Source of the DNA: Orrella dioscoreae
GTDB taxonomy: Bacteria; Pseudomonadota; Gammaproteobacteria; Burkholderiales; Burkholderiaceae_B
DNA: 64,000 nucleotides
NCBI RefSeq assembly: GCF_900089455.2
Contig: NZ_LT907988.1
Location: 186,001 to 250,000, forward strand
Reading direction: 5' to 3'
How positions within the stretch are numbered: the first letter of the stretch is position 1; each line of letters begins with the position of its first letter. Positions 19,421 through 29,814 of this stretch are shown one piece after another. The notes under the pieces are model-generated. The model saw nothing but the letters and a program-made list of their open reading frames with translations. It made no database searches and was not told the origin of the DNA. Made by a program: the position numbers and the translations under genes.

Positions 19421-20371
19421 TCACTGGGCCTGAGCCGTCGCGGCAGCCTCGTCGTCCTGCCCTGCGTCGTCGTGACCGCCGGTCACCGAGGCGGGCGGAT
19501 GCCCCGTCTTGCGGCTCATCAGCAGCGCATGCAGCATCTCGGTCGACAGGCCGTGCAGTACCAGGCGGTGGCCGGCGCGCAGTGTCGACAGCGGAATCAG
19601 CGGGTGATGGTTGTTGACCAGGATGAGATGCTCGGGCGCGCCCAGCAATTGCGCCGCATAGATGCCGATGGTCTCGTCCAGCTGCAGCGAATTGGCTGCG
19701 CGCCAGAAATCGTTGTCGGTCAGCAGCAGCTGGTACACCGGCGTGAACACCTCGATGGCGCTCTGGATGTCGATGACGTTCAGGCGCCCGCGCGGCATGT
19801 CCTGCAGTCGCAGCGGCGGCTCGCGCAGCATGCCGTAATCCACTTCGTCGGGCGGGCCCATCTCCAGGCCCTGCGCCTGCAGGGCCTGGTTCAGGCGGAT
19901 GACGAAGTTGAAGAGATTGACGTCATGCTTGACGAAGAGATCGTCCTTCAGGTCCGCGATGCACATCGGTTCCAGCGGCGTGGTCTCGATGGGGGCGGGC
20001 GAGTTGCGGCCGATGAACGACAGGATCTGCGCGCCCAGGTGGAAGTGGCGCAGGATCAGCCAGTTGGCCTCGGGCGAGACGAAGCGCGACAGTCCCCAGG
20101 CCAGCAGCCGGTGCAGCACGCGCGAGTGCGACCACTTGCGCGGCAGGAAGGTCTTCACGATCTGGATCACGATGATCAGGACGCGCGCCAGCGGCCGCAG
20201 GAACGGCAGCAGGTATTGCCGCGACGCGCTGCTGGAATCCTTCAGCCATGCCCGCTTCACGTGGTCCGGCAGCGGCGTGCTGCGGTCCAGGTACAGCGCC
20301 AGCCAGGGGCTGGGGTCTGCCGGATCGTGGCCGCGCCGCAGGAAATCGGGCTCGGGCATGGGGTGTTTCAT
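19421..20371 (-). CDS. Uncharacterised protein, last gene of the lipid-like operon
   Basis: The 316-residue protein is of unknown function. One strongly hydrophobic stretch (about 55-75, RPLARVLIIVIQIVKTFLP) and a basic patch around it suggest membrane association; the rest is soluble with a charged C-terminal tail (about 290-316). No catalytic motif is recognised, but a HxHxH-like set (LVNNHHPLIPL) occurs near 255-265. The ATG overlaps the ketosynthase stop as ATGA, with GGAGG 7 bases upstream inside that gene, so translation is coupled. It probably belongs to the same pathway as the ketosynthase and the two membrane oxygenases. Confidence 0.75.
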   Translation of the reverse strand: MKHPMPEPDFLRRGHDPADPSPWLALYLDRSTPLPDHVKRAWLKDSSSASRQYLLPFLRPLARVLIIVIQIVKTFLPRKWSHSRVLHRLLAWGLSRFVSPEANWLILRHFHLGAQILSFIGRNSPAPIETTPLEPMCIADLKDDLFVKHDVNLFNFVIRLNQALQAQGLEMGPPDEVDYGMLREPPLRLQDMPRGRLNVIDIQSAIEVFTPVYQLLLTDNDFWRAANSLQLDETIGIYAAQLLGAPEHLILVNNHHPLIPLSTLRAGHRLVLHGLSTEMLHALLMSRKTGHPPASVTGGHDDAGQDDEAAATAQAQ

Positions 20372-22299
20372 CGTTCCGCCTCCATGACGTGCTGGAACTG
20401 CATGAGATACAGCGCCGCCGTGCGCCGCGCGGTGTCGACGATGCGGGCGGCCGAGCGCGCCGGGTCGCCGACCTCCATCACCAGCTGCACCGCCATCAGC
20501 CAGCGCGCCAGATGGTCTTCGTCATTGTGGCCGTGGTACTCCAGGAAGCGGAAGGCCTCCGGCGGCAGCGGCAGGCTGGCGCGCAACAGCGGCAGCAGCT
20601 GGGGCACGATGCGCTGCCCGGTGCCCTCGATGATATAGATCGCGCCCAGCAGGCCGATGGGATCCTGCGTGGCGGCCAGGCCGTGCAGATAGGCGTTCAG
20701 CGCCTCGCCGCCCGGATTGCGGCGCAGCGCGTCGATGTCCGGCGCCGTGCCGCCCGCGCGCTGGTAGTCCTGGAAAAGGATCTTGAAGTCGTTCTGCTCT
20801 TCACCCGCGTGCAGGTCGATGAGCGCGGACAGCTCTGCATACGGGCCGGTCAGCGAGGCCGCGCCTTCGCGCATCCACTTGCTGCCTTCGCGCACCTGCG
20901 GAATCCAGTGCGACATCCAGCCGATGTAATCCGAGGTCTCGAAGCGGCGTTCGCGCAGCTTGCGGATCACGGGCGTGCGCCAGACGCGCGAGCGATAGTC
21001 GTGCCAGATGGCGGCCAGCTCGGTCAGCAGCGGCCGCAGCGGATCGGGACCGGTGTCGGGATCATGCGGGGGCGCGATGAGCACGTCGTCGCTGTCCATC
21101 GCGGCGGGCGGCTTGGCGGCCGGGGCCGCGGCCGGGCGGGACTCGGCATTGGCGCCCGCTGCCTCGTCCGCTTCCGCTTCGAACAGCATGTAGGCGGCCA
21201 TGAAGCGGCCCGACTCGGGGATATAGCAGAAGATCCGCTCGCCGGGCCGCAGTGTGCGCGTCTGCAGGAACTCGGCCAGCATGACGAAGATGGAGGCCGC
21301 GCCCGTGTTGCCGCGCCAGGCCAGGTTGCTGTACCAGCGCTCGCGCGGGATGACGAGGCCTGCCTTTTCCATCAGGTCTTCCACCACCGGGATGAAGCGC
21401 GCCGAGGAGTAGTGGCACAGGAAGTGGTCCACGGTCTTCGGGTCCAGCCAGCCGTCGCGCACGAGTTGCGCGTATTCGTGGATGCCGATGTCGAAGAGGT
21501 GGGGCAGCAGCCGGATGTCCTGGCGCAGCGACAGCGCGCCGTCGGCTTCGGCATCCGCCCACGAGGGATAGTCCAGGTGTGCGCGCTTGCGGTCCTCGGA
21601 CAGGCCCAATTGCATGCACACCGGGTAGTCGCCCGAGAACGCGCGCTGGTGGACCCACTTCAATTTCAGGCGGATGCCGGGCTGCGCGGTGGCGCGGCCG
21701 GCCGAGCCATCGCCCAGCAGCAGCGCGCCGGCGCCGTCGGACAGCATCCAGCGCAGGAAATGCGCGTCGAAGTCGGCGTCATAGCCGCGATTGGCAAAGC
21801 GCGAACGCTTGAAGAGCCGCGAGGGCATTTCGCTGGCCACCGCCAGGGCGCGGCCATGCGCACCCAGTTCGATGCCTTGCGCGGCGGCCTGCACGGCCGA
21901 CACGCCGGCGGCGCAGATACCGTGCACGGACAGGGTTTCCATGGGCGGTGCCGCCAGTTCGCCCTGGATCATGTTGGCGAAGCCCGGCATCAGCGCGTCG
22001 CCGCCGGACGAGCCGCTGGCCAGCATCGACACTTCATCCAGCCGGGCGCCGCCGCGCGCCAGGCAGTCGCGGATGGCGGCGGCCGCCAACTGCGCATTGC
22101 CCATGACGGTGTTGCCCTCGGCGTCGATGGCGTAATGGCGCGTGGTGATGCCGTTCTCGGCCAGGATGCGGCGCTTGATGCGGTCCGACATCCGGTTCAG
22201 CGGCGCGATGTACGCGTCCATCTGATCGTTGCTGACAGGCTCGCCGGGCAGGTAGTACGCGGCGCTTTCCACATGGACGCGCTCAAAGCGGATGGGCAT
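20368..22299 (-). CDS. Beta-ketoacyl-ACP synthase III-like protein fused to a heme-oxygenase-like di-iron domain
   Basis: The 643-residue fusion starts at the ATG at 22299, where KAS III similarity begins. Residues 1-375 form a thiolase fold with the full condensing triad: C129 (VHGICAAG), H296 (FLCHYSSA) and N331 (AWRGNTGAAS). A Pro/Ala-rich linker (about 378-405) leads to an all-helical domain (about 420-640). It has H497/E500/E501 (LIDLHAGEEQND), E558 (YIIEGTGQ) and HxxxDxxH at 589-596, the pattern of heme-oxygenase-like di-iron enzymes such as UndA or CADD. The first half should join acyl or malonyl thioesters; the second may oxidise or decarboxylate the product. It overlaps its neighbours by 17 and 4 bp. 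DarB/StlD-like ketosynthases, which build alkyl-resorcinol or cyclohexanedione lipids, should be compared. Confidence 0.8.
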   Translation of the reverse strand: MPIRFERVHVESAAYYLPGEPVSNDQMDAYIAPLNRMSDRIKRRILAENGITTRHYAIDAEGNTVMGNAQLAAAAIRDCLARGGARLDEVSMLASGSSGGDALMPGFANMIQGELAAPPMETLSVHGICAAGVSAVQAAAQGIELGAHGRALAVASEMPSRLFKRSRFANRGYDADFDAHFLRWMLSDGAGALLLGDGSAGRATAQPGIRLKLKWVHQRAFSGDYPVCMQLGLSEDRKRAHLDYPSWADAEADGALSLRQDIRLLPHLFDIGIHEYAQLVRDGWLDPKTVDHFLCHYSSARFIPVVEDLMEKAGLVIPRERWYSNLAWRGNTGAASIFVMLAEFLQTRTLRPGERIFCYIPESGRFMAAYMLFEAEADEAAGANAESRPAAAPAAKPPAAMDSDDVLIAPPHDPDTGPDPLRPLLTELAAIWHDYRSRVWRTPVIRKLRERRFETSDYIGWMSHWIPQVREGSKWMREGAASLTGPYAELSALIDLHAGEEQNDFKILFQDYQRAGGTAPDIDALRRNPGGEALNAYLHGLAATQDPIGLLGAIYIIEGTGQRIVPQLLPLLRASLPLPPEAFRFLEYHGHNDEDHLARWLMAVQLVMEVGDPARSAARIVDTARRTAALYLMQFQHVMEAER

Positions 22300-23254
22300 G
22301 GGACGGGTTCTCTGTTGCGGGTGAAGACGGTTCGTTTGCGGGCGCGGGCGCGGCAAGGCTTGCCACGGGCATCAGCGAGACGCTGCGCATGCGCGGCCAC
22401 ACGGCGCCCAGGAGGAAGACGCGGCCCATATAGGGCAGCAGGCCGCGTTCGTTCAGGCGCGGGTCCACGCGCTGGCGCACGCGCGCGTGCAGCTGCGCCA
22501 GTTCGGACCAGTGCGCGCGCGAATGCTCGTGGTGCGCGGTGTGCAGGCCGATGTTGAACAGCAGCGGGTTGACCAGCCCTTCGAAGTTGCGGGCGTAGTT
22601 CAGCGTGGCCTCGCCTGGCGGATGCCGGCGGCCATCGGCGTGCGCGTGCTGCAGGTAGTTGGTGGCCAGCAGCCAGTGCAGGCCATGCAGTTGCGGCACG
22701 ATCACGAAGAGCAGCGCCTTCCGCCAGTCCAGCGCCAGCAGCAGCCCCCACGAACCCAGCCAGATGGCGTACTGCAGCAGGCAATAACGCCACGCGCCGG
22801 GCCGGTGGCGCCGCAGCCTCTGCAGCCAGCGCCAGAACAGCGGCATCAGCACCCACACGGCCTGGAAGGGATGCAGCAGATAGCCCGCAAGGTGATTGGT
22901 ATCGCCGCCGAAGCGATAGGTGCGCGCCGCGTCGCGCGGCCCGTGCCGATGGCGGTGATGGTTGGCCACGTGCGCGGGATAGAAGACGAAGGTGGGATGG
23001 CCCTGCAGCAGCGTGATCCACAGGTCGGTGGCCCGGTTGGCCCAGCGGCCATGCCACATGCGCAGGTGCGTATGGTTGTGGTGGATGACGCCCACGCCCA
23101 AGGTCAGGAACAGCATCAGGCCGTACAGCAGCCAAGAGAAACCGTGTTGCCATTGCCAGGCGGCCAGCGCCGGCAGCGCCAGCAGGTAGGCCACGCTCTG
23201 CAGGTCGCGCCAGTGGCGCAGGCCGCGCGGCCTTTTTTGCCGTTCAGCCTGCAT
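22283..23254 (-). CDS. Membrane fatty-acid desaturase
   Basis: The 323-residue membrane protein carries the histidine boxes of acyl desaturases: HHNHTH at 58-63, HVANHHRHRH at 95-104, a third set at LQHAHADG (203, 205), and GLHTAHHEHS at 237-245. Hydrophobic pairs lie at about 20-57 and 155-195. These histidines bind a di-iron centre that removes hydrogens from an acyl chain. The ATG at 23254 overlaps the upstream gene by 11 bp; an in-frame ATG at 23278 is an alternative. It is the second gene of the operon with the ketosynthase fusion, so its substrate is probably the acyl chain made or used there. Chain position and length are unknown. Confidence 0.88.
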   Translation of the reverse strand: MQAERQKRPRGLRHWRDLQSVAYLLALPALAAWQWQHGFSWLLYGLMLFLTLGVGVIHHNHTHLRMWHGRWANRATDLWITLLQGHPTFVFYPAHVANHHRHRHGPRDAARTYRFGGDTNHLAGYLLHPFQAVWVLMPLFWRWLQRLRRHRPGAWRYCLLQYAIWLGSWGLLLALDWRKALLFVIVPQLHGLHWLLATNYLQHAHADGRRHPPGEATLNYARNFEGLVNPLLFNIGLHTAHHEHSRAHWSELAQLHARVRQRVDPRLNERGLLPYMGRVFLLGAVWPRMRSVSLMPVASLAAPAPANEPSSPATENPSHAHPL

Positions 23255-24041
23255 GGCCACCGGCCTGGCTTCCCGCATCACGGCGGGCGCGAGCCTGGCT
23301 TTGTTGCTGGATCTGCGCTGCCGCCGCGTCCGGCGGCAGCACCGAGCGGAACAGCCTGTCCATGAAGGTGAACTGGAAGCCGTAGTTGCCCTGGTAGCAG
23401 GCATGATGCAGGTGGTGCCGGCGGCTGGCGGCGAACCAGTGCATGGGCGAGACGCGCGTGAAGAAGTCGTAGTTCGCGTGGCCGATGCAGTTGAAGAAAA
23501 GGCTGAAGATCGGCACGGACAGCAGCGACCAGAAACTGAAGTCGTGCACGACCATCGGCAGCAGGATCACGTTGCCCAGCATCAGCGCCTCGATCGGGTG
23601 GAAGCTGTAGGTGGAAAACGGCGTGGTGACCACCGAGCGATGGTGCGGCAGGTGGAAGCGCCGCAGCGGCCGCGTGTGCAGCAGGCGGTGGTTGATGTAG
23701 AAGTGCACGTCGTTCCAGATGACCAGTGCCAGGATCTCCAGCGCGACCTGGCCCGGCGTGCGTTCAGCCAGTTGCGCCCAGCCCAGCTGCAGCAGGCCCC
23801 ACGGAAAGATCATGCCCAGGCCGAAGATCAGGATGGACACGCCCGATTGCTGCAGCTCGCGGCGCAGCTGGCCGGGCTGGAGCGCGCGCGGATCGAGCAC
23901 GCGGCCGATGCCCAGCGCGGGCAGCACGTGACGCGTCAGCGTCCAGGTGGCCAGGCCGAACACCAGGTAGATGCCGCCGAAGAACAGCAGGCCGTAGGCC
24001 ATGACTTCGACGGCGGAGAGAGCAGCGAAGGCTTGCGCCAT
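23244..24041 (-). CDS. Sterol desaturase/fatty-acid hydroxylase-family membrane protein
   Basis: The 265-residue protein uses the ATG at 24041. Four or so membrane segments (about 14-36, 68-90, 155-185) surround the family's histidine clusters: HFYINHRLLH (113-122), HLPHH (130-134), H188, and HHLHH (209-213). These bind a di-iron centre that hydroxylates or desaturates lipids. It opens the four-gene operon, 103 bp after the gluQ stop on the same strand. Bacteria of this type make no sterols, so a fatty-acyl or similar lipid is the likely substrate. Confidence 0.88.
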   Translation of the reverse strand: MAQAFAALSAVEVMAYGLLFFGGIYLVFGLATWTLTRHVLPALGIGRVLDPRALQPGQLRRELQQSGVSILIFGLGMIFPWGLLQLGWAQLAERTPGQVALEILALVIWNDVHFYINHRLLHTRPLRRFHLPHHRSVVTTPFSTYSFHPIEALMLGNVILLPMVVHDFSFWSLLSVPIFSLFFNCIGHANYDFFTRVSPMHWFAASRRHHLHHACYQGNYGFQFTFMDRLFRSVLPPDAAAAQIQQQSQARARRDAGSQAGGHAG

Positions 24042-24144
24042 GGTCGAGGCTTTCCGCGAGCGGGGATGGATGAGACGGCCACATCTTAAGCAAACTCGGC
24101 GCTCCTGTCCCTGAAAAGTCTGCCCAGGGGCGCGGGGCTTGTCT

Positions 24145-28459: not shown

Positions 28460-29299
28460 TCAGGCGGCCAAGGCCTGAGTTCGGTATTGCACCGGGCTCA
28501 GGCCTTTTAGTTTGAGCCGGATACGCTGGTGGTTGTAGTAGTGGATGAACTGGCCGATGGCTTTCTGTAGCTGGTCGATGCTGTCGTAGCGGTTCAGGTA
28601 GAAGCACTCGGTCTTGAGCGTGGCGAACCAGCTCTCCATGGCGGCGTTGTCCAGGCAGTTGCCCTTGCGCGACATGCTTTGCGTGAGGCCACGATCGGCC
28701 AGCATGCGCCGGTAGCTGGGCTGCTGGTACTGCCAGCCCTGGTCCGAGTGCAGCAGCGGTTGGTCGCCCGGCGACAGGCGGCGCATCGCCTTCTTGAGCA
28801 TGTTGCCCACCAGCCCGAACAACGGACGCTCGCTGGTCTCGTAGGCCACGATCTCACCGTTGTACAGGTCCATCACCGGCGACAGATACAGCTTCTGGCC
28901 GCGCACGTTGAACTCCGTCACGTCGGTGACCCACTTCTGGTTCGGACGGTCGGCCTCGAACTGGCGTGCCAGCACGTTCGGCGCCACGCGGCCCACCTCA
29001 CCCCGGTACGAGCGATACTTCTTCGGGCGCACCAAGGACTTCAGACCCAGCACCCGCATCAGCTTCTGCACCGTCTTGTGGTTCACGCACTGGCCAGCCT
29101 GGCGTAGCGCGGCAGTGATGCGTCGGTAGCCGTAGCGGCCCTTGTGGCGCGCATAGACGGCACTGATCTTGGCCTTGAGCCCCGCAGACTTGTCTGCCAC
29201 GCCCCGCGCCTTCAAGTGGTAGTAGAACGTGCTGCGCGAGAGCCCTGCGACTGCCAGCAGCACACCTACGCGATGCTCTTGCCTCAACCCAGCGATCAA
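28460..29299 (-). CDS. IS3-family transposase OrfB (DDE integrase domain)
   Basis: The 279-residue product, read from a TTG at 29299 that overlaps the OrfA stop, begins with an HTH_21-like region. The rve integrase domain follows, with catalytic D126 (WVTDVTEF), D186 (LLHSDQGWQY) and E222 (NAAMESWFATLKTE), the 35-residue D-E spacing of DDE enzymes. It is probably made as an OrfAB fusion by -1 frameshifting at GAAAAAG (29305-29311, minus strand), where the -1 frame runs straight into OrfB. No stop or deletion is seen. Confidence 0.95.
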   Translation of the reverse strand: MIAGLRQEHRVGVLLAVAGLSRSTFYYHLKARGVADKSAGLKAKISAVYARHKGRYGYRRITAALRQAGQCVNHKTVQKLMRVLGLKSLVRPKKYRSYRGEVGRVAPNVLARQFEADRPNQKWVTDVTEFNVRGQKLYLSPVMDLYNGEIVAYETSERPLFGLVGNMLKKAMRRLSPGDQPLLHSDQGWQYQQPSYRRMLADRGLTQSMSRKGNCLDNAAMESWFATLKTECFYLNRYDSIDQLQKAIGQFIHYYNHQRIRLKLKGLSPVQYRTQALAA

Positions 29300-29814
29300 C
29301 TGCGCTTTTTCTGCGCTGCCGCCCTCTTTTGCTGGATCAAGGCATCGAGCTTTTTTAGGTAGGCGTTCTCCGCTCGGAGGTACTCGTTTTCCTTGAGCAC
29401 CTCCTCAAGGGTTTTCTGCTCTGGGGCTGTGGGCCCTGACGGTTTTACTGACTGATCTGACATGGCTCTGCATCCGCGCCGACGGCGCTCAAGGGCTTCA
29501 TTTCCACCCTCATGATACTGACGCTCCCACCTACCAATGTGGCTCGCCGAGCGAATATCAAATGCTGCCGCAGTCTGCGTCAGAGACCACCCCTCACGCC
29601 ACATCCGATTGAGCACCTGCAGCTTGAATGCCGCGTCGTAGCTCGCGCCCTTGCGACGCAGGCCGCACACCCCGTGCTCTCGATAGCTACTTACCCACCG
29701 CCTGACTGTGGCGTGACCAAGACCGTGCCTGGCGCCCACCGTCTTCGATCCCCCCGATCCTGACAGATACTCCTTCACTACCTTGAGCTTGAAACGCTCG
29801 TCGTACTTCGCCAT
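29296..29814 (-). CDS. IS3-family OrfA (double helix-turn-helix)
   Basis: The 172-residue protein has two helix-turn-helix units (about 8-50, GGSKTVGARHGLGHATVRRW; about 62-105, WSLTQTAAAFDIRSASHIGRW), then a predicted leucine-zipper-like coiled coil near the C terminus (LEEVLKENEYLRAENAYLKKL). It recognises the element's ends and dimerises. The C-terminal codons AAA AAG lie in a slippery G-AAA-AAG run just before the stop. The two-HTH arrangement is typical of the IS150 group. Confidence 0.93.
   Translation of the reverse strand: MAKYDERFKLKVVKEYLSGSGGSKTVGARHGLGHATVRRWVSSYREHGVCGLRRKGASYDAAFKLQVLNRMWREGWSLTQTAAAFDIRSASHIGRWERQYHEGGNEALERRRRGCRAMSDQSVKPSGPTAPEQKTLEEVLKENEYLRAENAYLKKLDALIQQKRAAAQKKRS
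29305..29311 (-). promoter_or_regulatory. Probable -1 programmed frameshift site GAAAAAG
   Basis: The OrfA codons read CAG-AAA-AAG-CGC-AGT-stop. A -1 slip on GAAAAAG gives GAA-AAA-GCG-CAG-TTG and continues into OrfB. IS3 elements commonly use A-AAA-AAG; this differs only in the first base. Confidence 0.6.

Follow-up and report, generated by a model that had tools for sequence, protein, structure and literature searches.

Orrella dioscoreae encodes a 643-residue protein in which a ketosynthase (KS) assigned to the StlD/DarB class is joined to a domain modelled with the haem-oxygenase fold, as in the haem-oxygenase-like di-iron (HDO) enzymes. The fusion is genuine and has been kept in more than a hundred Burkholderiales species. 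The cassette around it is conserved and uncharacterised. The fusion combines known kinds of enzyme in a new way and does not define a new kind. We propose, with a probability of about 40%, that the fusion is a bifunctional O2-dependent lipid synthase. The KS would condense, and probably cyclise, its substrates, and the HDO domain would oxidise the product in place of DarA.

One chain from one reading frame

The fusion gene lies at 20368..22299 on the minus strand of the window, which is the whole 64,000-nucleotide stretch of DNA that was analysed. It is a single unbroken frame of 643 codons, in agreement with the single chain claimed by the sequence-only reading of this DNA, which named no strand. 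The plus-strand frame over 20368-22299 is a mirror ORF, a type common in GC-rich DNA, and was set aside. On the minus strand, the KS domain (residues 1-375; 21175..22299) is followed by an Ala/Pro-rich linker (residues about 376-406; 21082..21174) and the haem-oxygenase-fold (PF14518) domain (residues about 419-640; 20380..21045). The linker, recognised from sequence alignments of relatives, differs in length among them and is longer in G1115, G1116, G1126 and G1141. The frame is broken by a stop or frameshift in a few relatives (G009, G010 and G1086). An assembly artefact is ruled out as the source of the fusion, since both parts and the adjoining DUF6999 gene are present in 88 of 88 fetched loci.

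The ketosynthase half

The KS half has the complete KAS III triad that was claimed for it. Cys129, His296 and Asn331 align with their counterparts in StlD (PDB 5gk0) and are invariant in 89 sequences. In alignment, the triad and the conserved Glu157 are kept in all forms, including the stand-alone DarB of Variovorax. In StlD, a Glu at this position is implicated in cyclisation.

Pfam detects ACP_syn_III_C in the fusion protein, and the NCBIfam StlD/DarB ketosynthase model covers residues 8-375 with a score under its curated cut-off. The KS half misses both StlD/DarB cut-offs (321.7 of 450 bits for NF005293 and 250.6 of 550 bits for NF053539) as well as that of the FabH model TIGR00747 (56.3 of 292.1 bits). 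Among solved ketosynthases, StlD 5gk0 comes nearest, with an E-value of about 1e-58 spanning residues 7-371. By sequence, the KS half belongs to the StlD/DarB class and is not FabH-like. Because it scores under both StlD/DarB cut-offs, it may catalyse something other than ring closure.

DarB and StlD had also been offered as an alternative explanation for the length of the protein. This does not hold, because the known enzymes have about 377 residues and end where the extra domain starts, near residue 375. Comparison with them places the KS half in their class and leaves the remaining ~240 residues as an addition.

The haem-oxygenase-fold half

PF14518 (Haem_oxygenas_2) is found at residues 513-631 with 35.7 bits, passing its cut-off of 28.9, and the HDO homologues encoded as separate genes likewise pass. 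The AlphaFold2 model of the C-terminal domain, built from 30 rows, has a mean pLDDT of 93.3. In the VIA-align/Foldseek ranking, PDB 3dde comes first (Z 25.8), followed by CADD (Z 23.4) and then by TenA, HrmI and UndA (Z about 20-21). Foldseek TM values to 3dde, CADD and UndA are about 0.75-0.77, and Z ranges from 20 to 26. For 3dde, 219 residues are aligned, and the profile E-value is 2.5e-13. The C-terminal half, as modelled, adopts the haem-oxygenase fold. The HDO-like fold proposed for it was thus borne out: a profile search and a structure prediction for this half both found the haem-oxygenase fold, and structures with that fold, including CADD, HrmI and UndA, are the top PDB matches.

PDB 3bjd, titled a putative 3-oxoacyl-ACP synthase, is also among the matches. 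Its aligned range equals that of FlcD (9b9m), and we take it to be FlcD and not a KS precedent. DtpC, an HDO linked to desiccation tolerance, was set aside as a functional precedent, as its six ligands are the usual ones and it works with another partner (katE).

The window genome encodes three more PF14518 proteins (G000:C1:1620611-1621147, 1638123-1638635 and 1312731-1313252; L090, L089 and L092), one of which is in a ~700 aa frame adjoining a thioesterase-like gene. In two other Burkholderiales, stand-alone HDO genes related to the fusion's domain directly adjoin a ligase gene (L126:5206-7457 and L127:6843-9054). The ligase is AMP-binding in L126 and similar by sequence in L127, and the pairs possibly form a free-acid HDO pathway.

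The candidate metal site

An HDO usually carries a Glu and a His on alpha-1, a single residue on alpha-2 and a His-Asp/Glu-His set on alpha-3 (PMC11363339; PMC13108848). The alpha-1 Glu...His pair is found in about 85% of HDO groups, and the rest have no standard motif or no clear prediction (PMC11363339). In the fusion, the candidate ligands are H497, E501 and D504 on alpha-1 (20788..20811), E558 on alpha-2 (20626..20628) and H589, D593 and H596 of HxxxDxxH on alpha-3 (20512..20535), all on the minus strand. Six of these (H497, E501, E558, H589, D593 and H596) show no variation across 89 sequences. Together with D504, they are also invariant in 30 HDO-domain rows that include the split homologues, so that all seven residues are kept from the fused forms to homologues of about 30% identity.

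Every residue listed by the sequence-only reading lies at the position given, and the list largely stands. E500, which it gave beside E501, is A, D, K, Q or another residue in some of the wider 30 rows, so E501 is the one to read, and D504 was absent from its list. The claimed HDO metal pattern is canonical at E558 and HxxxDxxH but not on alpha-1, where the Glu...His pair is replaced by H497-x3-E501-x2-D504. In profile alignments with 3dde, L126 and L127, E501 lies opposite the Glu and D504 opposite the usual His. There is a one-residue gap at this site in L126 and none in L127 or 3dde. The extra His, H497, is one turn upstream of E501 and is also present in 3dde. Sequence alignment therefore fits the six-ligand motif E-H-X-H-D/E-H on alpha-2 and alpha-3 and departs from it on alpha-1. 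We are moderately sure of a predicted ligand set of three His and up to four carboxylates, in an order that differs from that of the HDOs. As the alpha-1 motif is atypical, dimetal binding by this domain is putative.

TenA and PqqC share the haem-oxygenase fold at similar Z, and the C-terminal domain could be non-redox, either metal-free in the manner of these proteins or structural or substrate-binding. Asp504 in place of the usual alpha-1 His would suit such a role. However, 3dde and CADD outrank TenA, and the invariance of all seven residues down to the distant split homologues counts against it. We consider a non-redox domain unlikely.

The operon and its distribution

The gene for the DUF6999 protein (316 aa; 19421..20371, minus strand; PF22523, E=6.9e-131) overlaps the fusion gene by 4 nt. 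Upstream of the fusion gene, and on the same strand, are two conserved neighbours that encode a fatty acid desaturase family membrane protein (22283..23404; PF00487, E=1.3e-24) and a fatty acid hydroxylase superfamily membrane protein (23244..24047; PF04116, E=3.1e-21). The desaturase start is uncertain, as the alignments of many relatives begin further in, and the hydroxylase start is placed where the alignment of relatives begins. No ACP gene is present in the operon, which counts against the lipid synthase proposal. Elsewhere in the window, an IS3-like transposase gene pair in two consecutive frames was recognised by eye from the translations (28460-29814, minus strand).

The desaturase and hydroxylase genes bear on an UndA-like route, in which the HDO domain would decarboxylate or desaturate a linear beta-keto or fatty acyl KS product to give an alkene, enone or ketone. 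An operon with such genes fits this route, as does the structural match to UndA (Z 20.6), an enzyme with fatty acid substrates (PMC13108848). Against it, the KS falls in the cyclising StlD/DarB class and is not FabH-like, the alpha-1 motif is unlike that of the UndA class, and similarity of the haem-oxygenase fold is common to many activities. The UndA-like route is possible, though we doubt it.

In a species-genome collection, 215 pattern hits were obtained, and 205 of these encode relatives. Eighty loci were fetched, mostly from Achromobacter, Variovorax and Bordetella-related species. In the window's family, the fusion is found in 90 of 268 genomes and 13 of 43 genera. Nearly all of the fetched Burkholderiales loci arrange the genes as hydroxylase, desaturase, KS-HDO and DUF6999. 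Among the exceptions, no desaturase gene was found in L085 (G006) and no hydroxylase gene was detected in L069. More distant Proteobacteria (L104, L114, L115, L123 and L124) encode KS and HDO in two neighbouring genes, with DUF6999 next after them. In both the KS tree and the HDO tree, a single well supported branch separates all fused forms from the rest, which is consistent with a single fusion event. The order KS, HDO, DUF6999 is the same whether fused or split, and therefore the two activities belong to one pathway.

StlD/DarB chemistry requires an unsaturated acyl partner, and the HDO domain might act before the KS, converting an acyl thioester to an oxidised form, such as the alpha,beta-unsaturated one, that the KS then condenses. 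Gene order and fusion are compatible with channelling either way. Fatty acid synthesis, however, already supplies trans-2-enoyl-ACP. Characterised HDOs are, moreover, mostly tied to fatty- or amino-acid substrates (PMC13108848), and this order of events seems improbable.

Variants and remnants of the cassette were also observed. In the alphaproteobacterial loci L115 (4700-8098; G521) and L124, a fused MFS-acyltransferase-AMP ligase (about 1130 aa) is encoded after the split KS-HDO-DUF6999 genes. Decayed cassettes in G092 (L105) and G833 (L125) show stops and frameshifts in KS and DUF6999, and a DUF6999 tail only. In G114 (L103), a lone DUF6999 gene is found beside transposase-like genes.

The DUF6999 partner

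Every intact cassette seen, fused or split, has DUF6999 beside its KS-HDO genes. The AlphaFold2 model of the protein is confident and all-helical (pLDDT 87). Foldseek returned no PDB match at E<=0.001, and the best Z was 2.9. Residues that are polar and invariant in alignment include H109, H149, D150, D201, D232, H273 and E278. DUF6999 is named in no paper found by our literature search, and the cassette gives it a pathway context. In the split alphaproteobacterial cassettes L115, L123 and L124, DUF6999 is about 51-54% identical to that of the window, and KS and HDO are 35-39% identical. Possibly DUF6999 has been exchanged, or KS and HDO have changed faster. The DUF6999 tree fails to separate fused from split forms, which may be due to long branches or exchange.

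DarA and the resorcinol clusters

In dialkylresorcinol (DAR) pathways, DarB is the cyclase and DarA is the aromatase (PMC3949708). Two Variovorax genomes (G1032 and G1033) encode a stand-alone DarB next to a flavodoxin-like gene, at a locus apart from the cassette. From its position and sequence, this gene is taken as darA, and the DarA-like query drawn from Variovorax has no NCBIfam match. The DarB beside it scores 465.5 bits, which passes the 450 cut-off and misses the 550 one. With this one query at E<=0.001, DarA is absent from 26 of the 29 cassette genomes, including that of the window, and the only matches are in G674, G1032 and G1033, which are Variovorax-type. A canonical darA was found neither near the cassette nor elsewhere in the window genome by the same search. 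On these searches, the cassette is not a canonical DAR cluster in disguise, because DarA is missing from those 26 genomes and the window genome has only one StlD/DarB-like KS. An unrelated enzyme encoded elsewhere in the genome could stand in for DarA.

In Achromobacter mucicolens, antiSMASH made an automatic call of a "resorcinol" cluster with a core gene called DarB, in an account whose passage on the cluster does not mention an HDO half (PMC9045304). A. mucicolens carries the KS-HDO cassette (L019), which is probably the cluster described in that passage. The cassette may account for automatic "resorcinol" calls without DarA.

Proposed mechanism

The sequence-only reading had proposed that the fusion forms a carbon-carbon bond and then oxidises or decarboxylates on the same protein, and this is also the order that we infer. 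An acyl chain would be loaded on Cys129 of the KS and condensed with a second fatty-acyl thioester, and the KS would probably then close a six-membered 1,3-dione ring. In the HDO domain, H497/E501/D504, E558 and H589/D593/H596 would form a non-haem dimetal site. This domain would oxidise the KS product by desaturation or aromatisation, possibly with decarboxylation, which is the job of DarA. DUF6999 is the constant partner of the fusion, and the membrane desaturase and hydroxylase would tailor the chains in Burkholderiales. In favour of this proposal, the KS-HDO operon encodes fatty-acid oxidases, and some known HDOs are desaturases or fatty-acid decarboxylases (PMC13108848). The analysis establishes the fused architecture, the fold, the conserved residues and cassette and the lack of DarA, and from these the substrates, cyclisation, metal binding, oxidation and order of steps are inferred.

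A more specific form of the lipid synthase proposal casts the HDO domain as an O2-dependent ring oxidase replacing DarA, so that one polypeptide, with DUF6999, cyclises two fatty chains and then aromatises or oxidises the ring. This form is speculative, and we lean against it. If true, both the HDO reaction and the resorcinol-type lipid route would be undescribed in the literature found, and they would be present in well over a hundred species. The open-access literature yielded no relevant paper on a KS-HDO fusion.

Only about a dozen members of the HDO superfamily are functionally validated (PMC13108848), and the superfamily gains here a C-C bond-forming enzyme with a built-in oxygenase-fold partner. 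Its conservation in Achromobacter, Variovorax and many Bordetella-related species suggests that a lipid or metabolite has been missed. As a natural fusion, the protein is a test case for substrate channelling and for an unusual metal-ligand set.

Comparison with known systems

Residues 1-375 of the fusion resemble StlD and DarB (NF005293, NF053539; PDB 5gk0) in class and length, in the Cys-His-Asn triad and Glu157, and in the FLRWMLSDGAGA motif common to both. The fusion differs from them in scoring below both curated cut-offs, in its added C-terminal HDO domain and in the absence of a DarA partner. In Variovorax, it occurs alongside a separate stand-alone DarB. With the PF14518 HDOs CADD, UndA, HrmI and SznF, the C-terminal domain has in common the haem-oxygenase fold, E558 and HxxxDxxH. 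Unlike them, it has H-x3-E-x2-D on alpha-1 in place of the usual Glu...His and is joined to a ketosynthase; for UndA in particular, what is shown is a shared fold. The closest solved structure is PDB 3dde (Sden_3740), an uncharacterised haem-oxygenase-fold protein that shares the extra upstream His. The solved chain has no KS fusion, and it keeps His where the fusion family has Asp504.
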